Assembly (NCBI GenBank): GCA_030432595.1
Contig: JAUIGU010000018.1
Location: 1-64,000, forward strand
DNA length: 64,000 nt
From: Phycisphaerae bacterium
GTDB lineage: Bacteria > Planctomycetota > Phycisphaerae > Phycisphaerales > Phycisphaeraceae
Reading direction: 5' to 3'
The position numbers and the translations under genes were made by a program. Within the stretch, counting starts at the first letter, position 1. Every line of letters begins with the position of its first letter. Positions 1-43,739 of the stretch are shown piece by piece. The notes beneath the pieces were generated by a model that saw only the letters and a program-made list of their open reading frames with translations, ran no database searches and was not told the origin of the DNA.

Positions 1-1381
1 TGCCGTCGATGAATTCATCGGTGGCGGGCTTGTAGCCGTCGGTGTCCCAGGGGACTTCTTCTTCGAGGATGTAGCCCTCGTCCACGAGCATGCGTGCCGC
101 TTCGAGGTAGATCGCGGGCTTGTAGACCTCCTTGGCCATCTCGTCGTACCACTCGGCGGGCTTGGCCTCGGTGATCTGGCCCCAGCGGCGCATCTGCGTG
201 AGGAACCACACGCCGTCGCTGTACCACGGGTACGTGCAGAAGTACTTGTAGAACACGTTGAAGTCCGGCATCTCACGCTTATCGGTGCGTTGGAAGTAGA
301 AGTACCCGGTCATCGAGTTCTTGATGACGTCGTAGTCGGCGCCGACGTAGTCGGAACGCGAGAGGATGCGTGCCGCCTCTTCGCGGTTGACCAGCGTGCC
401 GGCGTCGTCGGTCTCGTCGAGCCAGCGCCCGGCGCGGATGAGCGCCTTGGTGACCGCGAGCATGGTCTGCGGGTTCTCGTCCGCCCAGGCCTTGGTGACG
501 CCGAACACCTTCTCGGGGTTGTTCTTCCACACGTCGTAGTTGGTCGTGACCGGGACGCCGATGCCCTTGGCGACGGCCTGCTGGTTCCACGGCTCGCCGA
601 CGCAGTAGCCCTGGATGTTGCCGGCCTCGAGCGTCGCGGGCATCATCGGCGGCGGCGTGACGGACAGTTCGACCTGCGCATCGGTGCGCCCGCCGATGTC
701 GGTCTCGGTGTACATGCCCGGGTGGATGCCCGCGGCGGCGAGCCAGTAGCGGATCTCGTAATTGTGCGTGGACACGGGGAAGACCATGCCCATCTGGAGT
801 TTTTCGCCGTCGGCGATGCGCTCTTCAACGATCGGCTTGAGCGCCGCGGCGCTGATGGGGTGGTCGGACTGGGGCGTGTCGAGCGCGGAGTCGATCTCTT
901 GCATCTGGTCCCACACGGCATTGGACACGGTGATGCCGTTGCCGTTGAGGTCCATGGTGAAGGCGGTGATGATGTGAGCCTTGGTGCCGAACCCGATGGT
1001 CGCGGCGATGGGCTGCCCCGAGAGCATGTGCGCGCCGTCGAGCTCACCGGAGATCACGTTGTCCAGCAGCGTCTTCCAGTTCGGCTGGGCGATGACTTCG
1101 ACCGAGAGGCCTTCGTCGTCAAAAAAGCCCTTCTCTTTGGCAATGACGATCGGGGCGCAATCGGTGAGTTTGATGAAGCCGAACTTCAGTTCGTCCTTTT
1201 CGAGGTCGAGCATCTCCGTGTCGCCGCCGTCCACCGCGGGGACTTTGCCCGGCCCGAGCGCGGCCGCGGGCGAAACACTCGTCGCCAACGCACCCAACGC
1301 AAGCGACCACGTGAGCACGCGTCGGCCGATCCGATGAACATCAAACTTCGGGCGGTGATCCGGGCGGTCCTTGCATAACAT
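1..1381 (-). CDS. nrtA: Nitrate-type ABC transporter substrate-binding protein (3' end outside window)
   Basis: The reading frame runs leftward from an ATG at 1381 to the window edge (about 460 codons) and has no stop, so the C-terminus is missing. It reads as the NrtA/CmpA family of periplasmic binding proteins for nitrate/nitrite or bicarbonate. The mature part contains [20 protein letters not shown], then [18 protein letters not shown], and near the edge [20 protein letters not shown], all typical of this family. The N-terminus [17 protein letters not shown] with an AA cleavage zone looks like a Tat or Sec signal. A GGAG Shine-Dalgarno lies seven bases before the ATG. It is divergent from nirA and probably heads an nrt operon that continues to the left. 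Nitrate rather than bicarbonate is inferred from the adjacent nitrite reductase and the sigma-54 promoter. Confidence 0.86.
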
Positions 1382-1440
1382 CTTGGGGCTCCAATGAACG
1401 AAACAAACGTGTCAGGGGCAGGCAGCAAATAAACGACGCT

Positions 1441-1462
1441 CTCCCACGTGACTTTGTGGGAG
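1441..1462 (-). promoter_or_regulatory. Stem-loop in the nrtA leader
   Basis: On the minus strand CTCCCAC, an eight-base loop AAAGTCAC and GTGGGAG form a perfect 7-bp stem. A T-rich stretch (GTCGTTTATTTG) follows, about 60 bases before the nrtA start. The position fits an attenuator or a leader antitermination site. No protein binding is shown by the sequence. Confidence 0.45.
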
Positions 1463-1481
1463 GTGGACGCCGTTGTCCTTG

Positions 1482-1499
1482 GCCGACGAACGGGTCGGC
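1482..1499 (-). promoter_or_regulatory. Hexaloop hairpin in the nrtA leader
   Basis: GCCGAC-CCGTTC-GTCGGC (minus strand) is a perfect 6-bp stem with a six-base loop, just upstream of the 1441-1462 stem-loop. Tandem hairpins with hexaloops are the architecture used by ANTAR antiterminators in nitrate genes. However, this loop lacks the usual A1/G4 bases, so the comparison is architectural only. Confidence 0.35.
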
Positions 1500-1590: not shown

Positions 1591-1606
1591 GCAAGCGGCG
1601 TGCCAA
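1591..1606 (-). promoter_or_regulatory. Sigma-54 promoter for nrtA
   Basis: Read leftward, this is TTGGCACGCCGCTTGC, an exact match to the TGGCAC-N5-TTGC sigma-54 consensus with the required ten bases between GG and GC. Transcription would start near 1580, giving a leader of roughly 200 bases. Sigma-54 control is well known for nitrogen assimilation genes. Confidence 0.7.
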
Positions 1607-1629
1607 ACGGCCCAAACCGTCTGAACGGA

Positions 1630-1652
1630 CCGGAACCCGTGTTTTCGGTTCC
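1630..1652. promoter_or_regulatory. Inverted repeat GGAACC-N9-GGTTCC, possible activator site
   Basis: GGAACC at 1632-1637 and GGTTCC at 1647-1652 form an inverted repeat between the divergent sigma-54 promoters. The longer box CCGGAACC (1630-1637) recurs directly at 1727-1734. Sigma-54 promoters need an enhancer-binding activator, so this is a plausible site. It does not match the classical NtrC box. Confidence 0.35.
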
Positions 1653-1675
1653 CCACTCTGCCGGGATTTTGATCA

Positions 1676-1691
1676 TTGGCACGCCGCGTGC
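1676..1691 (+). promoter_or_regulatory. Weaker second sigma-54-like element facing nirA
   Basis: TTGGCACGCCGCGTGC has GG-N10-GC spacing but GTGC instead of TTGC at -12. Its first 11 bases mirror those of the nrtA promoter (perfect inverted repeat with 1596-1606). It may be a second start, a decoy or a duplication remnant. Confidence 0.4.
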
Positions 1692-1779
1692 GCAGATGCG
1701 CGGCGCGCAACACGTCGGCAAACGACCCGGAACCTTCCCTATTACGCCCGAAGCCCGATTCATTTGTTTCCTTGCGGTT

Positions 1780-1794
1780 TGGCACCGCGATTGC
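1780..1794 (+). promoter_or_regulatory. Sigma-54 promoter for nirA
   Basis: TGGCACCGCGATTGC matches TGGCAC-N5-TTGC exactly, with ten bases between GG (1781-1782) and GC (1793-1794). The predicted start is near 1806, giving a leader of about 150 bases. The element lies inside an imperfect inverted repeat (CGGTTTGG 1775-1782, CCAAACCG 1813-1820). Confidence 0.65.
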
Positions 1795-1843: not shown

Positions 1844-1866
1844 GCCGCGGTCTCCTCCTCCGCGGC
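1844..1866 (+). promoter_or_regulatory. Stem-loop 1 of the nirA leader
   Basis: GCCGCGG and CCGCGGC form a perfect 7-bp stem around the loop TCTCCTCCT. The loop is pyrimidine-only and resembles an anti-Shine-Dalgarno. It could be part of a termination or translation switch with the larger hairpin that follows. Confidence 0.45.
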
Positions 1867-1877
1867 ACCCTCGGACA

Positions 1878-1925
1878 ACGGCGTCCCATGCCTGCACCCG
1901 CGTGCAGTACGTGGGACGCCGTTTT
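1878..1925 (+). terminator. Nested hairpin with T-run in the nirA leader (attenuator candidate)
   Basis: Arms ACGGCGTCCCA (1878-1888) and TGGGACGCCGT (1912-1922) pair over 11 bp. Inside them CTGCAC-CCGC-GTGCAG forms a second perfect stem (1892-1907). A short T-run follows directly (four Ts counting the last stem base). Lying 33 bases before the nirA start, this is placed like a leader attenuator. The T-run is short, so termination strength is uncertain. Confidence 0.5.
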
Positions 1926-1958: not shown

Positions 1959-3713
1959 ATGTGCGGAAACAGCAGCGCTCAATTCGACGGATTCAACCCG
2001 GAGCAGCAGCGGTACCTCGCGGACCTGCTTGCCCAGCTTGACCTGCAGGCCCTCTTCGTCGCGCCCTCAACGGGCGACGCGCCGCAACAAGTCACGGTCC
2101 ACGGCACGCCTTACGAAGACCTCTGCAAGGAAGAAGTCGCCAAACATGAGACGCACCCTTGGGACCTTTGGCCCAAACTCCGCGCCCACGCGGAGGCCGG
2201 CCGCATGCCCGAGGGCACCGACGTGTTCATGTTCAAGCACCACGGCATGTTCAACGTCGCGCCGGCCCAGCCTGGGTTCATGTGCCGCCTGCGCATCCCC
2301 GCGTGCAAGATGCGCGGCGACCAGATGATCGGTCTGGCCGACCTGACCGAAACCAAGGCCGGCGGCTACGCCCACGTCACCACCCGTGGCAACCTCCAGG
2401 TCCGTGAGATCGCCCCGGAAAACATGGTGGATGTATTGCAAGGCCTCGCCGGCATCGGCCTGACCAGCAAGGGCAGCGGGGCCGACAGCGTCCGCAACAT
2501 CACCTGCTCGCCCTCGGCCGGGTTCGATCCGGAAGAACTCATCGACCTGTCCGACCACGCGATCACCCTCCACCACCACATCCTCAACACGCCCGACCTG
2601 CACGGCATCCCGCGCAAGTTCAACATCAGCTTCGACAACGGCGGCAAGCTCTCCTGCGTCAGCGACACCAACGACATCGCGCTGCTCGCCACGGAAGTCT
2701 TGGAAAACGATCAGGGCGTCGAGCCCGGCGTCTACTGCCGTGTGTTGCTCGGCGGGATCACCGGGCACCTCGACTTCGCCCGCGACACGGGCTTCCTCGT
2801 AAAACCCGAGCACACTGTGGACGCCTGCGTCGCCATGCTCCGCGTCTTCATCGAGCACGGCGACCGCACCAACCGCAAAAAGGCCCGGCTCAAATACGTC
2901 CTCGACGAGCACGGCTTCGACTGGTACATCCAGCAATCCCAGGCCGTGCTCGACACGATCAACCCGGACGCAATGTTCATCGCACTGCCCACCGACGCCT
3001 GCGCCCCACGCAAAGCAATCGACCGCCAGGGCCACATCGGCGTGCAGCCTCAAGCACAGGCCGGTTTCAACTGCGTCGGCCTGAACCTGCCCGTCGGCAA
3101 GCTCACGCCCGAGCAGATGCGCACGCTCGGCTGGCTCGCGATGAAGTACGGCCGCAACGACCTGCGCCTCACCGTCTGGCAGAACGTGCTCATCCCCTGG
3201 ATCGCGGATGAAGACGTCGATGCCTTTGTCGCGAAAATCCGCGAGATGGGGCTGACGATCGAAGCCTCCGCGTTCGCCGCCGGCGCGGTCGCCTGCACCG
3301 GGAAATTCGGCTGCAAGTACGCCTCGGCCCACACCAAGTCGCACGCCGCCATGCTCGTCGAACACCTAGAGCAGCGCTTCGAACTCGACACGCCCATCAA
3401 CCTGCACCTCACCGGCTGCCCGCACTCCTGCGCCCAGCATTACATCGGCGACATCGGCCTGCTCGGTGCGACCACCGAAGACGGCCGAGAGGCCTACCAG
3501 GTCTTTCTCGGCGGCGGCAGCGACCTCGAACAAGGTCTAGCCCGCCACCTCGTCGGACCGGTCCCCGCCGAGGAACTACCGGGTTTCCTCGAACACGTCG
3601 TGCAGACCTACCTCGACCGGCGTGAAACCGGCGAACGCTTTTTTGCCTTTACCCGCCGACACAGCGAAGACCAGCTCATCGAGTTGTTCCTGCCCGCCGC
3701 CGTGCCCGCCTGA
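1959..3713 (+). CDS. nirA: Ferredoxin-type nitrite/sulfite reductase hemoprotein
   Basis: 584 aa. It is a siroheme and 4Fe-4S assimilatory nitrite (or sulfite) reductase that takes nitrite to ammonium with six electrons in the cytoplasm. The four cluster ligands are visible as C446-x5-C452 (CTGKFGC) and C487-x3-C491 (CPHSC), and both ferredoxin-like repeats are present. The ATG at 1959 gives MCGNSSAQF; the frame stays open upstream but that part has no family resemblance. No clear Shine-Dalgarno is seen. The next gene, a diflavin reductase 63 bases on, is probably its electron donor. Nitrite is favoured over sulfite because nrtA is divergent and gltD follows. A sulfite reductase role cannot be excluded by reading alone. 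Confidence 0.87.
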   Translation: MCGNSSAQFDGFNPEQQRYLADLLAQLDLQALFVAPSTGDAPQQVTVHGTPYEDLCKEEVAKHETHPWDLWPKLRAHAEAGRMPEGTDVFMFKHHGMFNVAPAQPGFMCRLRIPACKMRGDQMIGLADLTETKAGGYAHVTTRGNLQVREIAPENMVDVLQGLAGIGLTSKGSGADSVRNITCSPSAGFDPEELIDLSDHAITLHHHILNTPDLHGIPRKFNISFDNGGKLSCVSDTNDIALLATEVLENDQGVEPGVYCRVLLGGITGHLDFARDTGFLVKPEHTVDACVAMLRVFIEHGDRTNRKKARLKYVLDEHGFDWYIQQSQAVLDTINPDAMFIALPTDACAPRKAIDRQGHIGVQPQAQAGFNCVGLNLPVGKLTPEQMRTLGWLAMKYGRNDLRLTVWQNVLIPWIADEDVDAFVAKIREMGLTIEASAFAAGAVACTGKFGCKYASAHTKSHAAMLVEHLEQRFELDTPINLHLTGCPHSCAQHYIGDIGLLGATTEDGREAYQVFLGGGSDLEQGLARHLVGPVPAEELPGFLEHVVQTYLDRRETGERFFAFTRRHSEDQLIELFLPAAVPA

Positions 3714-3776: not shown

Positions 3777-5573
3777 ATGACCGCCACCCTCAACGGACAT
3801 GCCAACGGCACCGCGCTTGCCGGCGACCGCCTGAACGGCGCGGTCGCGACGCTGACCGCGCCGAACCCGGCCACGCCGACCGTCCCCGATGACGCCCCCT
3901 TCACGCCCGGCCAACGCCAGTGGCTCAACGGACTGCTCACCGGGCTGACCGTGCTGTCCCGCGCCGCGCAAGGCGGCAGTGGGAACAGTCAACCCGAAGC
4001 GCCGGCCGTGCCGTTAACCATCCTCTACGGCTCGCAGTCCGGGAACTGCGAAGCGCTCTCCAAAGACCTCCGCAAACACGCGAAGGCTTCGGGGTTTGCG
4101 CCGGCCGTTCGCGAACTCAACGACGTCGCGCTGGATGAGCTGCCCGGGATGGGGCGTCTCGTCGTGGTGTGCAGCACGTTCGGCGAGGGCGACCCGCCCG
4201 ACAACGCTAAGTCGTTCTGCGACGCGATCCACGCCGATGACGCGCCGTCTCTGGCCGGGCTGGACTTCGCCGTCTGCGGCATGGGCGACTCGTCTTACAC
4301 GCACTTCAACAAGACCGGGCGCGACCTCGACGCGCGCCTCGCGGCGCTCGGTGCAAACCGGGTGGTTGATTTCGTCGCCTGCGACGTCGCCTACGACGAC
4401 GACTTCGCGCAGTGGAAGTCGGACGTGTTCGGCAGCGCCGCGTTCCAGGTGGAGGGCGCAACCCCCGCCGCCGCCGGTGACACCACAGGCGACGAACCCA
4501 AAGAACGCTTCACCAAGAGCGAGCCGTTCCCCGCGACGATCCTCGAGGTCCGCCGGCTCAGCGGGGACGGCTCGGCCAAGGAAGTGAACCACGTCGAGAT
4601 CTCGCTCGCCGGGTCGGGCCTGGACTACGCCGTCGGCGATGCGCTCGGGCTTTGGCCGACCAACTGCACAGAGCTTGTGCAGGAATTGTTGGCCATGTTC
4701 GGCTTCACGGGCCGCGAGGTCGTGCAAATCAAAGCCGACGTGATGTCGCTCCGCGCGGCGCTGCTCGACAAACTCGACATCTGCACGGTCACCGCCAAGA
4801 CCCTTGAAGCCCTGGGCGTCGATCCGGCGACCGAGGTGCCGGCCGGCACCCAGTTGCTCGACCTTTTGGAGGGCATTGTCGATCAGATCGAACCGCAACA
4901 GCTTGTCGATGCGCTGCGCCCACTCTCGCCGCGGCTCTACTCGATCGCGTCCAGCCGCGCCGCCCACCCCGGCGAGGTCCACCTCACCGTCGGCGCCGTG
5001 CGCTACGAGACCCACGGCAGACCGCGCAAGGGCGTCGCCTCCACGTTCCTCGCCGACCGTTGCGGCTGCGGCGCCCGCGTCGGCGTGTACCTGCAACGTT
5101 CGGCCCACTTCCACATCCCGGACGACGACACGCCGCTGATCATGATCGGCCCGGGCACCGGCATCGCGCCCTTCCGCGCTTTTCTCGAAGAGCGTTCCAC
5201 CCACGAAAACAAGGGCCGCAACTGGCTTTTTTTTGGCGACCAGCACGAGGCCGACGACTTTCTCTACCGCGAAGAAGTCGATGCCTGGCTTGCCGACGGC
5301 ACGCTAGAGAGCTTCACCGCGGCGTGGTCCCGTGACCAGGCGGAGAAGGTGTACGTCCAGCACCGCATGGCCGAGCACGGCGCCGAGCTTTGGGACTGGC
5401 TGCAGGCCGGCGGCGCGGTGTACGTCTGCGGCGACGCGTCACGGATGGCCAAGGATGTCGACGCCGCGCTGCACGCGTTGATCGCCGAGCACGGCACGAT
5501 GTCAGAGACAGACGCCGCCGCCTACGTCGAACAACTCAAGGCCGACCATCGCTACCAGCGCGACGTGTACTGA
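3777..5573 (+). CDS. CysJ-like NADPH diflavin reductase
   Basis: 598 aa, the normal length for the flavoprotein (alpha) subunit of NADPH-sulfite reductase. Order: a poorly conserved N-terminus of about 78 residues, an FMN-binding flavodoxin domain (LTILYGSQSGNCEALS and VVVCSTFGEGDPPDNA), a connecting/FAD domain with RLYSIASS, and an NADP domain with MIGPGTGIAPFRAFLEER and YVCGDASRMAKDVD. It ends RYQRDVY, the usual aromatic C-terminus of this family. It should pass electrons from NADPH to the siroheme enzyme encoded just upstream, making the pair a two-component NADPH-nitrite or sulfite reductase. Transcription is probably shared with nirA. Confidence 0.88.
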   Translation: MTATLNGHANGTALAGDRLNGAVATLTAPNPATPTVPDDAPFTPGQRQWLNGLLTGLTVLSRAAQGGSGNSQPEAPAVPLTILYGSQSGNCEALSKDLRKHAKASGFAPAVRELNDVALDELPGMGRLVVVCSTFGEGDPPDNAKSFCDAIHADDAPSLAGLDFAVCGMGDSSYTHFNKTGRDLDARLAALGANRVVDFVACDVAYDDDFAQWKSDVFGSAAFQVEGATPAAAGDTTGDEPKERFTKSEPFPATILEVRRLSGDGSAKEVNHVEISLAGSGLDYAVGDALGLWPTNCTELVQELLAMFGFTGREVVQIKADVMSLRAALLDKLDICTVTAKTLEALGVDPATEVPAGTQLLDLLEGIVDQIEPQQLVDALRPLSPRLYSIASSRAAHPGEVHLTVGAVRYETHGRPRKGVASTFLADRCGCGARVGVYLQRSAHFHIPDDDTPLIMIGPGTGIAPFRAFLEERSTHENKGRNWLFFGDQHEADDFLYREEVDAWLADGTLESFTAAWSRDQAEKVYVQHRMAEHGAELWDWLQAGGAVYVCGDASRMAKDVDAALHALIAEHGTMSETDAAAYVEQLKADHRYQRDVY

Positions 5574-5656: not shown

Positions 5657-7132
5657 ATGGCGCTCACCGATCTCGCCAAACGCAATCCGCGGTCTGCGAC
5701 CGCGACGGCCGTGGAGACTGCCGAGCCGGTCGGCGCGATGCCGATGCGCAGCCCGTCGCTGCGTATCAACGACTATTACGAGGTTTATGCGAGCCCCGAC
5801 CCGCAGCGCGTCCAGGAGGAAGCGGCCCGATGCATGAACTGCGGTGCGGCTTTCTGCATGCCCGAAGGAGGCTACCGTGCCAACGACGGCAGTGCGGCGG
5901 GCTGCCCGATCTCCAACAGAATCCCTGAATGGAACCGCTTCGCCGAAGCCGGGCGATGGCGCGACGCCTACGAACGCCTGGCGCTGACCAACAACTTTCC
6001 GGAGTTCACCGCGCGCGTCTGTCCGGCCCCTTGTCAGGATTCCTGCATCGTTGGCATCCATGACCGTCCCGTCGGGATCAAGTCCATCGAACGCGCGATC
6101 ATCGACCGCGCTTTCGAGAGCGGCTGGGTTCGGCCACGGACGCCACAACGCCGCACCGGCAGGCGGATCGCCATTGTTGGTTCGGGGCCGGCCGGCCTTG
6201 CCGCGGCGGACGAGCTCAACGCAGCCGGGCACCATGTCACCGTCTTAGAGCGATCCGACACGCCGGGCGGTCTTTTGATCTACGGCATCCCGACGATGAA
6301 GCTCAACAAGGCCGTGGTGGCCCGACGCATCGCGTTGATGGAACAGTCCGGGATCAGTTTTGAGACCTCTTGTGACGTCGGCCACGACATTGCGGCGGCG
6401 GATCTGGCCGCGAAACACGACGCGACCCTCGTGGCTGTCGGTGCGCTCACCGGCCGTGACCTGTACCTCCCGGGACGAAATCTGAACGGCATCATCATGG
6501 CGATGCCATATCTCGAAGCGGCCACTCGTCGGAACCTGCACCGCACACCGCTCCCCGAAGGACTCGACGCCGCCGGACGGGATGTCGTCATTATCGGTGG
6601 TGGTGACACCGGGGCCGACTGCATTGCGACGGCGATTCGGCAAGGGGCCGCGTCGGTCACCAACATCACGCGACGCGTCCGCCCCCCGTCCTGCCGATCC
6701 GACGCGAGCCCATGGCCGGGTCCGCCCGCAACCTACACGTTGGACTACGCGCACGCGGAAGGCCTTGCCCAGCATGGTGAAGACCCCCGCCGCTTTGGTG
6801 TCTCGCCGATCGCGTTCGTGTCAGATGGGGAGGACTCGAACGTCAGCGCGATGCAGATCAAAAACATCACGCCCGTGGCGACCCACACCGAGTTGTTGCC
6901 GGCGCAACTTGTGATCCTTGCGATCGGTTTTACGGGTCACGATGCTCCGAAGCTCTTCGAACAATTGGGTCTCTCTTCTGAGGGTCATAGCCTGGCGAAT
7001 TGCAACCGCGGTGTCTTCCTGGCCGGCGACGCCTGCCGCGGCCCATCGCTGGTGGTTGAGGCCATTGCGGATGGCCGTCGCGCCGCCCGCCAGATCGACC
7101 ACCACTTGGCGAGTCGTCCACGGCGGGATTGA
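5657..7132 (+). CDS. gltD: Glutamate synthase small-subunit-like NADPH oxidoreductase
   Basis: 491 aa. It matches the GltD/beta-subunit fold: an N-terminal double 4Fe-4S domain (CMNCGAAFC, GCPISNRIPEW, CPAPCQDSC), an FAD Rossmann motif (AIVGSGPAGLAAADEL), an NADPH Rossmann motif (VVIIGGGDTGADC) and the C-terminal FLAGDACRGPSLVVEAI. It feeds electrons to the large GltB subunit, which makes glutamate from glutamine and 2-oxoglutarate. The gene lies 83 bases after the diflavin reductase and is likely the last gene of the nitrogen-assimilation operon, using the ammonium made by NirA. No gltB is in the window. GltD-like proteins also serve other enzymes, so the partner is inferred. Confidence 0.84.
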   Translation: MALTDLAKRNPRSATATAVETAEPVGAMPMRSPSLRINDYYEVYASPDPQRVQEEAARCMNCGAAFCMPEGGYRANDGSAAGCPISNRIPEWNRFAEAGRWRDAYERLALTNNFPEFTARVCPAPCQDSCIVGIHDRPVGIKSIERAIIDRAFESGWVRPRTPQRRTGRRIAIVGSGPAGLAAADELNAAGHHVTVLERSDTPGGLLIYGIPTMKLNKAVVARRIALMEQSGISFETSCDVGHDIAAADLAAKHDATLVAVGALTGRDLYLPGRNLNGIIMAMPYLEAATRRNLHRTPLPEGLDAAGRDVVIIGGGDTGADCIATAIRQGAASVTNITRRVRPPSCRSDASPWPGPPATYTLDYAHAEGLAQHGEDPRRFGVSPIAFVSDGEDSNVSAMQIKNITPVATHTELLPAQLVILAIGFTGHDAPKLFEQLGLSSEGHSLANCNRGVFLAGDACRGPSLVVEAIADGRRAARQIDHHLASRPRRD

Positions 7133-7238: not shown

Positions 7239-8024
7239 TCAATACACGCAGATCGGGTGATGGATACCCGGCCGTGTGATTATCTCGGTTTGCACGCCGA
7301 ATACCAGACGCAGCGTCGTGGGGTGCAATAGTTCGGTCATGCGGCCTTTTGCGATGATTCGATGGTCTTTGAGTCCGACCAGTGAGGTGAAGCAGCGTGC
7401 CGCAAGGTTAATGTCATGCAAAACGGTGACGATGGTCGTGCCGTGCTCGCGGTTGAGGTCTTCGAGCAGGCCGAGCACCTCGAGCTGGTGCCCGATGTCC
7501 AGGGCGGAGACCGGCTCGTCGAGCAGCAGGACGTCGGCTTCCTGCGCGACGGTCATGGCGAGCCAGGCGCGCTGGCGTTCGCCGCCGGAGAGTGACTCGA
7601 CTTCGCGGTGCTGCAGCGCGGTCAGGTCGCAGAGGTCGAGCGAGCGGTCGATGGCGGTGCGGTCCTGCGGTCCAAAGCGGCGCGACCAGGCGATGTGGGG
7701 CGAGCGGCCGTAGCCGACGAGTTCGCGCACGGTGACGCCAGGCGGGCAGCCCGGGGACTGGGGCATGAAGGCGACCTTGCGTGCAAGTTCGCGGCGGTTG
7801 AAGCGGGCGATGGGTTGGTCGTCCAGGTGTACCCGGCCGGCGACGGGCTTGAGCAGGCGTGCCATGACGCGCAGCAGGGTGGATTTTCCCGAGCCGTTGG
7901 GCCCGATGAGCGCGACGCGGTCGCGGCGTTGGATGTCCAGCGTGGCGTCGATGAGCACGGGGTCGCCGCCGTAGCCAGCGGTGGCGTTCTCAACGCGGAG
8001 GATCGGGGGTTGGGTTTCGGTCAC
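7239..8024 (-). CDS. Iron(III)/siderophore-type ABC transporter ATP-binding protein
   Basis: 261 aa. A complete ABC ATPase: Walker A GPNGSGKST (41-49), signature LSGGERQR (145-152) and Walker B VLLLDEP (165-171) followed by SALD. The overall sequence is of the FecE/FhuC/BtuD/HmuV class, which powers uptake of iron-siderophore, heme or cobalamin. It is the last gene of a leftward unit, 11 bases after the permease gene, and is convergent with gltD. The iron assignment rests on the Fur-like box that heads the unit. Confidence 0.88.
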   Translation of the reverse strand: MTETQPPILRVENATAGYGGDPVLIDATLDIQRRDRVALIGPNGSGKSTLLRVMARLLKPVAGRVHLDDQPIARFNRRELARKVAFMPQSPGCPPGVTVRELVGYGRSPHIAWSRRFGPQDRTAIDRSLDLCDLTALQHREVESLSGGERQRAWLAMTVAQEADVLLLDEPVSALDIGHQLEVLGLLEDLNREHGTTIVTVLHDINLAARCFTSLVGLKDHRIIAKGRMTELLHPTTLRLVFGVQTEIITRPGIHHPICVY

Positions 8025-8035
8025 GACAAACGTTT

Positions 8036-9106
8036 TCAGATGAGCTTCTTGCGGTACAGCAGGAACACGAAGTACGGCCCGCCGATGAGCGCGGTGAGGA
8101 TGCCGACGGGCATCTCGGACAGTTGCCGGGCGAGCACGTCAGACCAGACGACCAGCGCCGCGCCGCCCAGCGCGGCGGCGGGAATGAGCGCGGCGTGGTT
8201 GCGGGTGACGGCGGTGCGGATGATGTGCGGGACGACCAGGCCCACGAAGCCGATGACGCCGGCGACGCACACGGCCGAGGCGGTCAGGAGCGCCGCGGCG
8301 ACGATCGCCCAGACACGGACGCGTTGCACGTTCGTGCCCAGCGACGCGGCCGAGTCTTCGCCCAGTTGCAGCAGGTTCAGCGGCCGGGCGATCAGCGCCG
8401 CGATCGACAGCCCAAGCACCGTGAACGGCCAGATCATCGGCAGGTGGTTCCAACTCCGCGCGTTGAGGCTGCCCGACAGCCAGAGCACGACGCCCTGAAT
8501 TCGGTCGGCGAAGTACACGGCCAGGAAGCTCTGCGCTGCGCCGAGCATCGCGGTCACGGCGACGCCCGCGAGGATCATCCGCGTCGGCGAGGTGCCGATG
8601 CCCGGCTGCCACGACATGATGTAGACGAGCAGCGTTGCCAGCAGCGCGCCGACGAACGCGAGCAGCGGCAACGACAGCGTGCTGAGCCACGCCCAACCGA
8701 GCTGTTCGGGCACGCCGAGGATCGCGAGGCTGGCGAACAACGCCGCGCCGACGGTGACGCCGATGATGCCCGGCGAGGCGAGCGGGTTGCGCATGATGCC
8801 CTGCAGCAACACGCCGGCGACGGCGAGGTTCGTGCCCACCAGCAGCGCGAGCAGGATGCGCGGCACGCGGACATTCCACACGATGATGTCGGTCGGGCTC
8901 GCGTCGGGCGTGTCGAGCCGGGCGTAGTGCCCGAGCGACGCGACGACGTCGCCGAGCGCCTGGCCGCTGCTGCCGGTCGCCGCGCCGACGAGCACCCCGG
9001 CCACGATCAGGCCGGCGAGCACGAGGAACGACACCACGCCGTGGGTGAGTCTCGACGCCGGTCGCGCGGCCGGCTGGTGAGCGACGCCATCAGAATCGGA
9101 AGTCAT
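8036..9106 (-). CDS. FecCD/BtuC-family ABC transporter permease
   Basis: 356 aa from the ATG at 9106. Many hydrophobic segments and FecCD-family signatures are present: VPRILLALLVGTNLAVAGVL, GIMRNPLASPGIIGVTVGAA, VAGVIGFVGLVVPHIIR and LIGGPYFVFLLYR at the C-terminus. It forms the inner-membrane channel of an iron-siderophore, heme or cobalamin importer, presumably as a homodimer because only one permease gene is present. The frame stays open about 970 bases upstream, but that stretch is antisense-free shadow of the binding-protein gene. The gene starts 23 bases after the binding-protein stop. Confidence 0.87.
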   Translation of the reverse strand: MTSDSDGVAHQPAARPASRLTHGVVSFLVLAGLIVAGVLVGAATGSSGQALGDVVASLGHYARLDTPDASPTDIIVWNVRVPRILLALLVGTNLAVAGVLLQGIMRNPLASPGIIGVTVGAALFASLAILGVPEQLGWAWLSTLSLPLLAFVGALLATLLVYIMSWQPGIGTSPTRMILAGVAVTAMLGAAQSFLAVYFADRIQGVVLWLSGSLNARSWNHLPMIWPFTVLGLSIAALIARPLNLLQLGEDSAASLGTNVQRVRVWAIVAAALLTASAVCVAGVIGFVGLVVPHIIRTAVTRNHAALIPAAALGGAALVVWSDVLARQLSEMPVGILTALIGGPYFVFLLYRKKLI

Positions 9107-9129
9107 GTCGGTCGTGTCGGGGCCTGTGG

Positions 9130-10131
9130 TTAAGGCGTCGAGACCGCGGCGCTGGGCGGCTGCGGCTGGTCGGGGTAAAGCAGGCCGTAGAGCGTGCGCA
9201 ACGCGACACCGGCGCGGGGCCCGGCGTGGGATGTGTAGATCGGGCCTTCCAGCAGGTGGGCGCGGCCGGTTCGCACCGCCCGCAACGAACGGAACGCAGG
9301 GTGGGCCATAAAGTCTTTGATCACTTGCGGGTCGGCGTCGTTGTAGGGGATGACGAAGATGACGTCGGGGTCTTGCGCGATGACGCGCTCCAGGTCGATC
9401 GGCGCCAGCGAGCGCAGTCGCTCGTGGGCCTCGGCCTCCGCGGCGATGTTGTCCACGCCGAGCACGTCGAGCAGGTCGCCCATGAAGGCGTTGCGGCGGT
9501 GGGCGTACCACGCGTCGTTGGTGCCGAAGAGGCTCAGCACGCGAGGCTTGTCCCCACGCACAGGGCGTTGCTGGATCCATTCGACGGTGGCGTCCACATC
9601 GTCGAGGAGTTGTTGCGCTCGTTCTGTCTTGCCGGTAAGTCGGCCGAGCATCTCGATGTATTGACGCACCTGCTCCAGCGACTTGACCTGGTGCAGGATC
9701 ACGGGCACGCCGACGGTCTGCTGCACGGAGTCGGCAAACTCGCCGAACACGTTGTGCAGAAGGATCGCGTCGGGCTGCATCGCGATGAGCTTCTCCACGT
9801 CCGGGCCCGTGCTGTGCGAGCGATCGACCACGGGGATGGACTCGGCCTGTTCCGGGAACACCGGCGGCACGTCGATCCGGACCACCGGCTCCACGCCCAG
9901 GGCCATCAGCGTTTCGAGCGCGAACGAGGAACACGCCGCAAAACGTGTTGGTGTCTTCGTGAACGTGAGGACTCGGCCGCGCTCGTCGGTGACGGTCACG
10001 CCGGTTGCTTCGCGCGCCAGCGACGGGGCTTGGGCAACGGCCCTGCGCGGTGTCGCCGTGGTCCAAGCGGTCCACACTCCGAACGCGAGGGTGCCAACGA
10101 CAACAATGAGGGTCGCAATAGGTCGGAACAT
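9130..10131 (-). CDS. Iron-siderophore/heme/cobalamin-type periplasmic binding protein
   Basis: 333 aa. N-terminal hydrophobic segment (FRPIATLIVVVGTLAFGVW), then the FecB/BtuF-type binding fold: RFAACSSFALETLMALGVEP, EKLIAMQPDAILLHN, VILHQVKSLEQVRQYIEMLG, and ERVIAQDPDVIFVIPYND. The start MFRPI at 10131 is preferred over upstream codons because AAAGG lies at a good distance before it. No lipobox cysteine is seen, so it is probably a soluble or membrane-anchored periplasmic protein. It is followed by the permease and ATPase genes and preceded, 40 bases away, by a PEP-CTERM gene on the same strand. Confidence 0.85.
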   Translation of the reverse strand: MFRPIATLIVVVGTLAFGVWTAWTTATPRRAVAQAPSLAREATGVTVTDERGRVLTFTKTPTRFAACSSFALETLMALGVEPVVRIDVPPVFPEQAESIPVVDRSHSTGPDVEKLIAMQPDAILLHNVFGEFADSVQQTVGVPVILHQVKSLEQVRQYIEMLGRLTGKTERAQQLLDDVDATVEWIQQRPVRGDKPRVLSLFGTNDAWYAHRRNAFMGDLLDVLGVDNIAAEAEAHERLRSLAPIDLERVIAQDPDVIFVIPYNDADPQVIKDFMAHPAFRSLRAVRTGRAHLLEGPIYTSHAGPRAGVALRTLYGLLYPDQPQPPSAAVSTP

Positions 10132-10171
10132 AAATGGGCCTTTCATGTCAGGCAGCGGGCATCCGGCCAGG

Positions 10172-11524
10172 TCAATCCACAAAGCGAGCAACGGTGTGCC
10201 ACCGGTTCGGGTTTACACGGCGGGTGAGGCAAACGCATCCAAGCACGATCAGGCTCGCCGTCGGCTCGGGCACGGCGGCGGCGGCAAAGTCCGGCGATGC
10301 GCTGCTGCCCCAGTTCTGGAGCACGCCGTCGAGTTCGGTCTGCTCGATCAAGCCTTCGGGCAGGTCGTTGACCCAGCCGGCCGGGGGCCCCGCCGTGGCG
10401 TCCACGCCCCAGTTCTGCAGGACCAGGTCCAGGTCGCCTTGCTCGACTTGCCCGCTGCCGTTGTAGTCGCCCGCCAACTCTGCCACGGCGAACTCGAGGG
10501 TGAGCATCGGAAGGTAGTTCTCAAGGACTTCATCGGTGTTGGGGTCGAGAACAACGCTGTCGATGCTGCCAAGCGTGAAGTCACCGTCGTCGGACGAGCC
10601 GAGCACGAGCCCCGCGAACGCTTCCTGCGAGCCGATCAGCGCGGCGACCTCGGCGGTGACGTCGAAGTCGAACTGCATACGGGGCAGGCCCTCGAGGATA
10701 CTCGCCCGCGCGAGCATGAAGTCGGTGATGCGTTGCAGGCCCAGGGCGGGATCGTCGTAGAGCAGGTCCACGGTGGCGTCGGCGGTGCCGGGGTTCGACA
10801 GATCGAACTTGGTCTGCACGGCGTCGTAGTCGGTGAGGTTGCCGTCGCCGGCGTAGGTGTTGACAAACGCGGCCGAGGGCAGCCGGCCGTCGGTGCTGAC
10901 CAGGTCCATGTTGGTCACGTCATCGATGAAGAACGTGAAGGTCGCGCTCACGAGGTCGCCGGCATCGAAGCCGGCGTCGTATACTCCCTGCAGCGCATAC
11001 TCGGAGAGCACGGTGTACTGCCGGTTCGCGGTTTGGCCGGCCGGGATGCCGTTGTTGCCGATGGAGAGCGTGGACGCGAACTGGTCGCCGTCGAGGTAGT
11101 AGCGCTTCTCGTGACCGGTGCCGACCGCGGCGGCATCGTCGGCGTAGAAGACGTACTCGGCGTTGGCTGGGTCCCAGTACACGACCTGCCCCGCGGCGTT
11201 GACGACCTGCGGGCCTTGTTGGGCGGGGGCGTGTTCGCCGGCGTCCCAGTAGCTCCAGTCCACGACGCCATCGGCGGCGGGCCAGGACGCGGTGGGGTTG
11301 GGGTTGTGGTCACCCGCCCAGTCGGAGGCGACGGTGTAGATGCCGGTCTCGCTGCCGCTGTCGGTGAAGAAGTTAGCGGCGCGGCCGGCGTGTTGGTCGT
11401 CAAAGCCTTCGATGGCGTCGGCGGAGCCTTGGAGCACGAGGGTTTCCGCCGACGCGCTCGGTGCGCCTTGAAACAAAGCCGTCGTGATCATGACGCCAAG
11501 GATCGAAGTGGATACGGGTTTCAT
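10172..11524 (-). CDS. PEP-CTERM protein with EF-hand/dockerin-like cassette
   Basis: 450 aa. A Sec signal (MKPVSTSILGVMITTALFQG...SASA) is followed by a beta-rich region of unknown function. It ends in a stretch resembling DNRLRE-type domains (DVTAEVAALIGSQEAFAGLV). The dockerin-like cassette AGDYNGSGQVEQGDLD and a sorting tail VPEPTASLIVLGCVCLTRR come next. PEP-CTERM tails are known to be processed by exosortase; none is in this window. The start at 11524 has GAGG nine bases upstream. It is leftward between another PEP-CTERM gene and the iron-type binding protein, so a surface role in iron capture is possible but only inferred. A strong hairpin lies in its upstream gap. Confidence 0.8.
   Translation of the reverse strand: MKPVSTSILGVMITTALFQGAPSASAETLVLQGSADAIEGFDDQHAGRAANFFTDSGSETGIYTVASDWAGDHNPNPTASWPAADGVVDWSYWDAGEHAPAQQGPQVVNAAGQVVYWDPANAEYVFYADDAAAVGTGHEKRYYLDGDQFASTLSIGNNGIPAGQTANRQYTVLSEYALQGVYDAGFDAGDLVSATFTFFIDDVTNMDLVSTDGRLPSAAFVNTYAGDGNLTDYDAVQTKFDLSNPGTADATVDLLYDDPALGLQRITDFMLARASILEGLPRMQFDFDVTAEVAALIGSQEAFAGLVLGSSDDGDFTLGSIDSVVLDPNTDEVLENYLPMLTLEFAVAELAGDYNGSGQVEQGDLDLVLQNWGVDATAGPPAGWVNDLPEGLIEQTELDGVLQNWGSSASPDFAAAAVPEPTASLIVLGCVCLTRRVNPNRWHTVARFVD
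10297..10471 (-). repeat. EF-hand/dockerin-like cassette copy 1
   Basis: Encodes the segment from AGDYNGSGQVEQGDLD to LIEQTELDGVLQNWGSSASPD. The first loop has the D-x-N-x-S spacing of a calcium loop; the second loop is degenerate. Four related copies occur in other genes of this window. Confidence 0.6.
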
Positions 11525-41108: not shown

Positions 41109-43739
41109 TCAATAACCTTCGACCAGGTTCGTGGTCTCGGCGTGGACCGTCTTGTCGCGGCGCAGCAGCACCGTCTCTAATCCGTGAGCGGGTATTTGAT
41201 CCCGCCAGACCGCGACGCCGTCGAGTTCCAGCGAAGCTGTGACGGATCGGCCGCGCTGATTGAGCAGCCGAACCACCAACGCGTCTCCCGATTCGGACCG
41301 TTTGACCGCGACCACGCGGGTCGTGCTAGGCGTGATGCCCAAACGCGGCCAGGGCTTACTGTCCGCTTCCACAGCTCCGTCGCCGTACAGCACTTGCCAC
41401 ACCGGCGGCATCTGAAGTTCGTCGGACCGACGGTTCAGGTCGGAAGTGTCGTGGCGGTCGCCCCAGCAGACCTCGAACCGAAAGTCGTGTCCGCCCTGAT
41501 CCTGCCGCGCCCGCGCGGACCGCCCGTGGTACGGATCGTCCGGCTTGATGCCGAAGGACGCGTAAGGCGGGCTGCGCAGCAGGTTGACGTAGAGCGCACC
41601 CCGCGTCAGCGCGTGGCCGTGGCTGCCGTCGTTGACCACGGACACGTGCCGGCCGTCCGGGTCCACCGCGGAGACCCAGCGCTGGTTGGGCTGGTCTTCG
41701 ACGCGTGGTGTCGGCGTGCGCTCGGCCACACTGAACAGCGACTCCGACACGCCGCGCGCAGCGTTAAAGCCCAACGGGATCTCGAGCTTGAGCATGCGGT
41801 CGGCGTGTCGAAAGTGCACATGGTCATGCAGAAACAAGCGGCCGTACCGAAGATCGAAAACGTATTTGCGGAGTAATGACGATCGTTCGTTGACGAACAC
41901 GGCTTCGATGACACGGCGCAACGGGCCGTCCTCGACCACGCGGATCGGTGGGCTGGTGTTGGCACGGCCACGTTTGCGGTCCGTCGCGCGCGGCGCGAGT
42001 TGGTACGCCTCGGCAGTGGAGGCGAGCCGGAACCTTGCGGTGGGCTTCTTCCACGGCCGGCCACAGAAGCCGACGTGTGACTTTTGCGCCGCGTCGGGGT
42101 GTTCGCGCACCCACGCGGCGTCGCCGCAACTCCACGAGTGGTCGAAATCCTCGAACAGCACGGGTCGAAACGCGCCGGGCCCCACATGATTGACGTGGTG
42201 TTTGTCTTCCAACGCGTCGATCAGGCCCGTACGCGGGTTGATCGTGACCCTCCCGCAGGCCAAGTCAACGGTCCAGGTGGAGGGGCGATCCACGACGGCG
42301 GTCGGTGACGTGTTCCGCGGGCGGACGACCGACGCTTCGAGCTTCTGGATTTCGAACGGCTGAAGGTCCAGCGCGACCAGGATGCGCGGCGTCCAGAGCG
42401 TGTCGAGGTTGTTCGCCGAGGCGACACGTTGATGCGGGACGCGCTTGCTTCCCTGGAGGATGCGGACATCTCCATCCTCGACCCAGCTGTGTGCGACGGT
42501 GTAATCGAGTTCCACAAGTCCGCGGAAGCGGTGGCCGTGCGGGTTGAACACATGGATCGGCACGGACGCGTTGTCGCCCCGTGTCTTGGTTTGTCGAAAG
42601 CTTGTGAACACCCCGAGCGTGGCCTCGCGCAGGGCGAGTTCGGCTCGCCCCAACCGAATCAACGCTTCGTGCTCAACCGCCGGCGTCCCCGTCCCCGTCA
42701 ATACGTCGTGGAACTGGCAGAACAACACGTCACGCCAGGCGGCGTCGATCTTTTGCGTCGGGTAGTGGCAATGCCCACTCCACCACGCCAGCGCCGCGAG
42801 GCGCTCGGTGCATGCAAGCAGCCCTTCGAGTCGGCGGTGAGCGCGCTTGACCCGGCTCATCGAGGTGTAGCAGCCCGGGAAGCTGTGCTGGATTTCGCCG
42901 GTGACGCTTGGTTGCTTCGCGTCGTCCTTTGTTTCCGCGAAGAACGCCTCGGGCGTCGAGTGAATCAAGCGGAGGTTTGGGCGGTCGTCCGCCAGTTCCC
43001 GCAGTTGGTCGTATTCGTGTCTCGACATGCCGCCGCCGTGGTTGCCCACGCCCCAGCACAGGATGCTGGCCGGCTCGCCTCGGTAGTGCTCAAACGCCCA
43101 AGGACCCTTCACGCCCAGATCGAGCCGCTCGTCGCCGGGGTGCGATACGTACGCCTCGTCCGCGCGGCGGGCGACGACCGAAGCGCCGCTGCGGTCCTTC
43201 CAAGTGAAGTTGCCAGTGGGCAGGTCGTGCGTTCCGAAGTCGGGCCGGGTGAACAGGTACGCCTCGAAGCCGCAGCCCGCGAGTACCTGTGGCAGGCCCT
43301 CGGGGTGCCCGAAGCTGTCGAGGTTGTAAGCCACGCGCGGGCGCTTCCCGAAGCGTTCGACGAAATACCGCAGACCGACGAGGAACTGCCGGATGTGGCT
43401 CTCGCCGCCCGGCCCGTTGAGGTCGGGCTGGAGGTACGCCCCGCCCGCGACGTGCCAGCGTCCGGCCGCGACCAGCTTCTCGATGCGCGCGAACAACGCT
43501 GGGTCGTGCGCCTCGACCCACGCGTAAAGCAGGCTCTCGTTCTGGTTGAACACGAAGCCTTCGTGCGTTTCGCAGAAGTCCGCCGCGACGCGAATAGTCG
43601 AGAGCGTCTCGGCCAGGCCGTCCTCCCACGACCACAGCCACACGGGGTCCAGATGGGCGTGGCAGAGCAGGTGGATGTTTCGTGGCAACGGCGTGGTCCG
43701 TGGGTACGGCTTCAACTCCCCGAAAACAGAACGTAGCAC
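41109..43739 (-). CDS. GH38 alpha-mannosidase, second copy
   Basis: About 876 aa if the GTG at 43739 is used; a TTG at 43715 that overlaps the transporter stop is an alternative. The frame stays open upstream to 44363, but that part lies inside the transporter gene and is meaningless. Motifs: LLCHAHLDPVWLWSWEDG (zinc site), YNLDSFGHPEGLPQVL (nucleophile aspartate) and FCQFHDVLTGTGTPAVE. It is clearly divergent from the 31305-34076 GH38 (DSFGHP against DLFGHV), so it may prefer another linkage. It is convergent with the GxGYxYP gene and coupled to the DASS transporter. Confidence 0.8.
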   Translation of the reverse strand: MLRSVFGELKPYPRTTPLPRNIHLLCHAHLDPVWLWSWEDGLAETLSTIRVAADFCETHEGFVFNQNESLLYAWVEAHDPALFARIEKLVAAGRWHVAGGAYLQPDLNGPGGESHIRQFLVGLRYFVERFGKRPRVAYNLDSFGHPEGLPQVLAGCGFEAYLFTRPDFGTHDLPTGNFTWKDRSGASVVARRADEAYVSHPGDERLDLGVKGPWAFEHYRGEPASILCWGVGNHGGGMSRHEYDQLRELADDRPNLRLIHSTPEAFFAETKDDAKQPSVTGEIQHSFPGCYTSMSRVKRAHRRLEGLLACTERLAALAWWSGHCHYPTQKIDAAWRDVLFCQFHDVLTGTGTPAVEHEALIRLGRAELALREATLGVFTSFRQTKTRGDNASVPIHVFNPHGHRFRGLVELDYTVAHSWVEDGDVRILQGSKRVPHQRVASANNLDTLWTPRILVALDLQPFEIQKLEASVVRPRNTSPTAVVDRPSTWTVDLACGRVTINPRTGLIDALEDKHHVNHVGPGAFRPVLFEDFDHSWSCGDAAWVREHPDAAQKSHVGFCGRPWKKPTARFRLASTAEAYQLAPRATDRKRGRANTSPPIRVVEDGPLRRVIEAVFVNERSSLLRKYVFDLRYGRLFLHDHVHFRHADRMLKLEIPLGFNAARGVSESLFSVAERTPTPRVEDQPNQRWVSAVDPDGRHVSVVNDGSHGHALTRGALYVNLLRSPPYASFGIKPDDPYHGRSARARQDQGGHDFRFEVCWGDRHDTSDLNRRSDELQMPPVWQVLYGDGAVEADSKPWPRLGITPSTTRVVAVKRSESGDALVVRLLNQRGRSVTASLELDGVAVWRDQIPAHGLETVLLRRDKTVHAETTNLVEGY

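Follow-up and report, generated by a model that had tools for sequence, protein, structure and literature searches.

In Klebsiella oxytoca, nasF is controlled by NtrC and sigma-54 together with NasR antitermination, as described in the accessible parts of two reports (PMC5424462, PMC7496416). At nalA of Pseudomonas aeruginosa, a sigma-54 promoter of the -24/-12 type, a leader and a terminator lie before the nitrite reductase genes, according to the available portion of the report (PMC3973561). The nasTS-nasABGHC genes of Paracoccus denitrificans have NasS-NasT, the leader hairpins HI and HII and an NtrC box of the published motif, YGCMNNNNTTNNTRGCA, and NasS-NasT senses nitrate through nitrate-driven dissociation (excerpts of PMC3795266 and PMC5424462). 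The available text of a further report describes nitrate-transport sigma-54 promoters for Pseudomonadota and a limited occurrence of NtrBC in Planctomycetota (PMC12316311).

The stretch of DNA analysed here, 64 kb in length and referred to as the window, belongs to a MAG of the Planctomycetota. Its nrtA and nirA genes lie back to back and diverge from an intergenic gap of 577 bp (1382-1958). In all likelihood this gap controls nitrate assimilation in both directions, through two successive gates per side. At the first gate, sigma-54 RNA polymerase would wait at two divergent promoters, and an NtrC-type enhancer-binding protein on a shared site would fire both under nitrogen limitation. At the second gate, each leader would form a terminator-like hairpin by default. 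In the presence of nitrate, NasS would let go of the ANTAR protein NasT, which would hold a GGAC-AACGGC-GUCC hairpin and let the polymerase read through into nrtABCD-gaf-narB-nasT-nasS on the minus side and nirA-cysJ-gltD on the plus side. With one enhancer, two sigma-54 promoters and two NasS/NasT attenuators, nitrogen shortage and nitrate would thus both be required.

The predicted arrangement resembles the nasF system, as far as the accessible descriptions go, in joining general Ntr control with a nitrate-responsive ANTAR antitermination in the leader. However, it has two divergent units, NasS/NasT where nasF uses the one-piece NasR, and P1 loops that lack the A1/G4 signature. With nalA as partially described, it shares the promoter/leader/terminator layout and a nirA leader that aligns over its full length to the Rfam model P11, but the P11 score is below gathering, nirA has a CysJ-like partner and there is a divergent twin. 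NasS-NasT, leader hairpins and an NtrC box recur in the excerpted account of Paracoccus denitrificans, in which the box lies before nasT, whereas here tandem boxes 30 bp apart would serve two promoters. For Azotobacter vinelandii nasAB with NasS/NasT, NasT reportedly mediates antitermination of the assimilatory nitrate reductase; the likeness to that system is one of description. By analogy, the locus would be a Klebsiella/Azotobacter/Pseudomonas-like case, in Planctomycetota, of a two-signal scheme known from proteobacteria. What sets it apart is that the units are doubled and divergent, with a single tandem enhancer between them and, probably, a GAF-type activator. A literature search found no published description of this doubled divergent arrangement, nor any published account of the ANTAR domain in planctomycetes. 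Under this reading, Planctomycetota too would have the two-signal control of nitrate assimilation by a sigma-54/NtrC box and a NasT leader, and the layout of one enhancer, two promoters and two attenuators is testable.

The nrtA-nirA locus and its probable promoters

The nrtA gene (2-1381, minus strand; PF13379) encodes the binding protein of a nitrate ABC transporter and is truncated at its 3' end by the contig end. On the plus strand, nirA (1959-3713; NF007126, 718 bits, cut-off 523) encodes an assimilatory nitrite reductase. It is followed on the same predicted transcript by a gene for a CysJ-like flavoprotein (3777-5573; TIGR01931, 586.5 bits, below the cut-off of 668), which adjoins nirA in relatives too and is likely the partner of the nitrite reductase. 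The third gene (5657-7132) encodes a GltD-like glutamate synthase small subunit (TIGR01317, 506.5 bits, cut-off 447.7). A minus-strand ABC transporter of the iron-siderophore/cobalamin type (7239-10191; the ATPase was identified by family search, the permease and the binding protein were read by eye) heads toward the gltD-like gene.

NirA was found in 21 of the 151 genomes searched, own genome counted. Nine of these, again with the own genome, have a close NirA, and eight of the nine have a complete nrtA-nirA gap. In the other 12 NirA is 48-53% identical; seven of them were retrieved, and G016, G024, G047, G075 and G084 were covered by the upstream scan only. The contigs of L102-L105 and L107 are identical to those of L021-L025, and each was counted once; L106 represents G037, L108 G004 and L109/L133 G010. 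G044 and G040, near copies of G031, were excluded from the motif training.

Two exact TGGCAC-N5-TTGC elements face outward from the gap, at 1591-1605 on the minus strand before nrtA and at 1780-1794 on the plus strand before nirA. An earlier note on this DNA had read them as divergent sigma-54 promoters, with ends off by one base. The usual sigma-54 geometry predicts starts at ~1579 for nrtA and ~1806 for nirA, with leaders of ~198 nt and ~153 nt, respectively. Because the exact consensus is at background genome-wide (8 matches vs. 10 for the reversed control pattern), a single match carries little weight, the match count was rejected as proof and conservation was taken as the evidence. Elements with at most one mismatch are present on both sides in 8/8 comparable gaps, own included, and on the nirA side in all nine genomes. 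At the genome background, two exact matches within one 577-bp gap have a P of ~7e-7. The searches for rpoN and an activator that the earlier note had proposed returned one PF04552 match (E 2.9e-60) and several GAFTGA-bearing activators. The two divergent sigma-54 promoters are thus very likely real, as the note had it, and from these elements we infer sigma-54 dependence and activation under nitrogen limitation.

Elsewhere in the genome, two of the other six exact matches directly precede ORFs that by eye resemble flagellar genes (C55:8590-8604 and C35:32950-32964 of G000), and a REC-type activator with an FlbD-like DNA-binding end lies near the C55:8590 element on the same contig. A search upstream of amt and glnA turned up no convincing sigma-54 site: the best before amt has one mismatch and lies 587 bases ahead of the match, and before glnA two-mismatch matches lie beyond 950 bases. 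Exact sigma-54 elements also precede the nirA genes of some gammaproteobacteria (L030, L038).

A predicted tandem enhancer between the promoters

A de novo palindrome search of 14 promoter-upstream regions gave a 17-bp dyad of the form TGC-N11-GCA with an A/T centre. Its log-likelihood is 50.0, compared with 33.1 +/- 3.3 (maximum 39.7) for 24 dinucleotide shuffles. A 15-bp dyad did not outscore its shuffles, and a 13-bp dyad was compared with four mononucleotide shuffles only. A 30-bp spacing was first noticed in the second-best sites and tested afterwards. In a scan of offsets 18-60 only 30 bp stands out, with six of the 14 regions scoring above 4, a level reached by 0/200 shuffles over that whole range of offsets. 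A two-box model was built on 13 regions, with L106 dropped as too short and the region of G031 extended to 300 bases. Its score at 30 bp is 86.5; the 11 other spacings give 26.3-51.5, and 24 shuffles do not exceed 36.5.

In the window, the predicted enhancer (1659-1705) consists of two such dyads exactly 30 bp apart between the promoters, the upstream box TGCCGGGATTTTGATCA at 1659-1675 and the downstream box TGCGCAGATGCGCGGCG at 1689-1705. In a held-out test on 12 loci (G031 and L106 dropped), each locus was removed from training together with its nearest kin. The predicted site ranked first in the whole locus in 10/12 loci, the window included, where 1659-1705 ranks 1 of 63,954 positions; in the two failures, L022 and G010, it ranked 34 and 4. 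Weak versions of the enhancer occur in L022, L108 and G010, and a second box 30 bp away was not found in G031 or L106. One enhancer is predicted to be shared by both promoters.

The tandem dyads resemble NtrC boxes. The best two positions for YGCMNNNNTTNNTRGCA in the gap, the motif being taken from the accessible part of its report, are the two dyads, which agree with it at 9/11 and 8/11 positions, respectively. Much of this match is due to the dyad ends, which the motifs have in common, and the inner positions show only a slight gain (2.67 vs. 2.32 +/- 0.18 for shuffled cores). Upstream of amt the two-box model scores 9.4 and upstream of glnA at most 1.4; these two scans demonstrated no wider nitrogen regulon. 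With the cross-validated de novo motif, the nitrogen regulon could be predicted for these bacteria, most of which have not been cultured.

The earlier note had proposed a weaker third sigma-54 copy and a shared activator bound to CCGGAACC boxes. The third copy is present at 1677-1691 (plus strand), with one mismatch, GTGC for TTGC. It has no counterpart in the same-genus L021, and it overlaps the conserved enhancer; L022 has a one-mismatch copy elsewhere in its gap, unrelated to this one. Thus, the third copy was rejected as a promoter, which it probably is not. The CCGGAACC boxes are exact at 1630-1637 and 1727-1734 (both plus strand), inside 14-nt repeats that are 86% alike, with two further exact copies in the 64 kb at 42027 and 51269. 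However, a comparison with relatives, as the note had suggested, found CCGGAACC between the promoters in none of the other seven gaps, L021 included; the one copy in L023 lies inside the nirA leader. The boxes were therefore discarded as an activator site, being without conservation even within the genus. A reading with three promoters and an activator on these boxes accounts for the presence of both elements and for the alikeness of the repeats, but with the third copy and the boxes missing from L021, the mismatch and the overlap with the enhancer it is highly improbable. What stands of the proposal is a shared activator with a conserved site between the promoters, and that site would be the pair of dyads. 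The 11-bp inverted repeat 1596-1606/1676-1686, which the note had explained by the promoters, extends to 16 nt (1591-1606/1676-1691, 94% complementary) and is probably incidental, since the third copy overlaps the conserved enhancer.

Candidate activators

The genome encodes five strong PF00158 proteins. Their scores with the NtrC model TIGR01818 are 450.4 bits for the protein on contig C55, 413.1 for C70, 378.7 for C38, 293.0 for C22 and 250.8 for C30, and none of the genome's proteins reaches the NCBIfam cut-off of 558.6. No protein of the genome qualifies as a standard NtrC by this measure. Among the four proteins read by eye, the GAFTGA loop is present in those of C38, C55 and C70. It is missing in the C30 protein (L145:2845-4383), an NtrC-family member that for this reason is probably not a sigma-54 activator.

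The preferred candidate is the C38 protein, a GAF-AAA-HTH regulator with an NtrC/Fis-like DNA-binding end. Compared with NtrC, this end scores 42.6 bits, against 22.9 for C70, 18.4 for C55 and 14.3 for C22, although Fis models score slightly higher on it (51.0 and 44.9). Orthologues of C38 occur in 55/151 genomes, in families f1 and f6 only; NirA is likewise confined to these families, and C38 is present in all 21 NirA genomes, a co-occurrence confounded by descent. The promoters and leaders could be as described and the activator instead be the order-wide REC-AAA-HTH regulator on C70, which has the NtrC domain order, is present in 146/151 relatives and matches the NtrC model across its whole length (413 bits). 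This is somewhat unlikely, given the lower score of its DNA-binding end and its occurrence in genomes without nirA, which suggests another role. Co-occurrence as an arbiter between the two was not decisive (55/151 vs. 146/151).

On the preference for C38, we tentatively suggest that this GAF-sensor regulator may fill the role of NtrC at the nitrate genes, with the GAF domain replacing the phosphorylated receiver domain. The GAF domain of NifA binds 2-oxoglutarate. Should that of C38 likewise bind a metabolite, 2-oxoglutarate for example, the regulator would sense nitrogen status directly and need no NtrB kinase, and at the one shared enhancer this direct reading would act together with two NasT attenuators.

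Leader hairpins and the NasS/NasT pair

Downstream of both promoters the leaders carry hairpins that the earlier note had overlooked. A P2 hairpin, GGAC-AACGGC-GUCC, is present in the nrtA leader at 1465-1478 (minus strand) and in the nirA leader at 1873-1886 (plus strand), each a predicted ANTAR target. P2, with A1/G4 in the hexaloop and a closing C:G pair, is present in 17/17 leaders of the nine genomes and matches the NasR SELEX consensus of a terminal C:G pair, A at position 1 and G at position 4, as given in the accessible part of PMC7496416. Stems also fold at the P1 position of both window leaders, at 1482-1499 (minus strand, nrtA; hexaloop CCGUUC) and 1844-1866 (plus strand, nirA; 9-nt loop UCUCCUCCU), but neither loop has A1/G4. 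The signature occurs directly 5' of P2 in only two of the 17 leaders, those of nrtA in L021 and L022. The window leaders have the P2 signature of the ANTAR two-hairpin motif yet lack that of its P1.

A terminator-like hairpin overlaps P2 in the nrtA leader (1432-1474, minus strand), and one with a 14-bp stem and a short U-run excludes P2 in the nirA leader (1877-1923, plus strand). The folding z-scores of the two leaders are -4.53 and -4.15. P2 pairs with downstream sequence in the lowest-energy fold of 20/26 leaders, a count made without a shuffled control, and in a 75-nt context of the nrtA leader P2 is favoured. A stem plus U-run was detected in 12/26 leaders vs. 250/2600 shuffled controls, a partial result, and a strict terminator scan of 1300-2100 found none. 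NasT-controlled termination in the leaders is predicted from the conserved RNA elements and the genes.

An alternative is that the sigma-54 promoters alone are real and the hairpins are ordinary terminators or chance, with no nitrate-specific RNA control. The short, weak U-runs would fit it, as would the GGACAANGNCGTCC pattern, which by itself is at background (three matches vs. six for the control in the own genome) and occurs somewhere in 102/151 relatives. However, this alternative is improbable in view of the fixed position and orientation of the hairpins behind both promoters in all 17 leaders, the nasT-nasS genes inside the operon, and matched changes across the stem. These changes (AACGGC with GCCGUU, AAAGGC with GCCUUU) keep AAC with GUU and AAA with UUU, so that the terminator arm stays complementary to P2. 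Also against it, the sigma-54 site lies 5' of the ANTAR box in six further genomes of the family or order, near their own ANTAR genes. Among the seven retrieved genomes, six (G031, G040, G044, G059, G063 and G071) have a sigma-54 site with an ANTAR box, and the seventh, G023 (L160), has a variant hairpin.

The nearest Rfam model to the leader is P11 (RF00625), which we presume is probably the NalA nitrate leader of Pseudomonas aeruginosa. It aligns to the nirA leader at 1768-1920, promoter and P2 included, with 23.5 bits (E 0.0044), far short of the gathering score of 70. In 56 kb of seven relatives there are three P11 matches in all (E up to 5), each on a nitrate leader: L024, L025 and L023 score 30.3, 21.5 and 20.0 bits, also below 70, and the E-values of the three are 0.0081, 1.4 and 3.3.

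The only ANTAR protein in the genome is NasT, a REC-ANTAR protein (PF00072 and PF03861) encoded on contig C22, separate from the window. It is directly followed by the NrtA-like NasS (PF13379), so that the genome has the REC-ANTAR NasT adjoining an NrtA-like NasS that characterizes NasS-NasT systems. The gene order on C22 is nrtA(end)-nrtB-nrtC-nrtD-gaf-narB-nasT-nasS. Relatives L139, L140 and L142 have the same order unbroken from nrtA, with nasT after narB in all three, and one contig of the same-genus G001 carries both an ANTAR box and an ANTAR gene, separated by 8.5 kb. Because of this order and linkage, the nasT-nasS pair is very probably part of the nrtA operon in the own genome too, even though the nrtA pieces of C22 and the window are not fully identical, and NasT would then govern its own supply. 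The 3' end of nrtA is found on two contigs, window 1-661 and L125 (G000:C22) 2-662, with 95.3% DNA identity, which reflects either strain variation breaking the assembly or two nrtA copies. The GAF-domain protein between nrtD and narB (L125:4376-5254) is kept in L139, L140 and L142 with 39-48% identity.

In G037, a third unit of sigma-54 element and ANTAR box (L211:12172-12283, G037:C87) has a good tandem enhancer and lies downstream of that genome's ANTAR (nasT) domain, at a distance of ~1.2 kb. In gammaproteobacterial nirA genes (L038 3860; L045 3648-3770), two hairpins with A1/G4 hexaloops come after a sigma-54 element, and the leaders are of the standard two-hairpin form.
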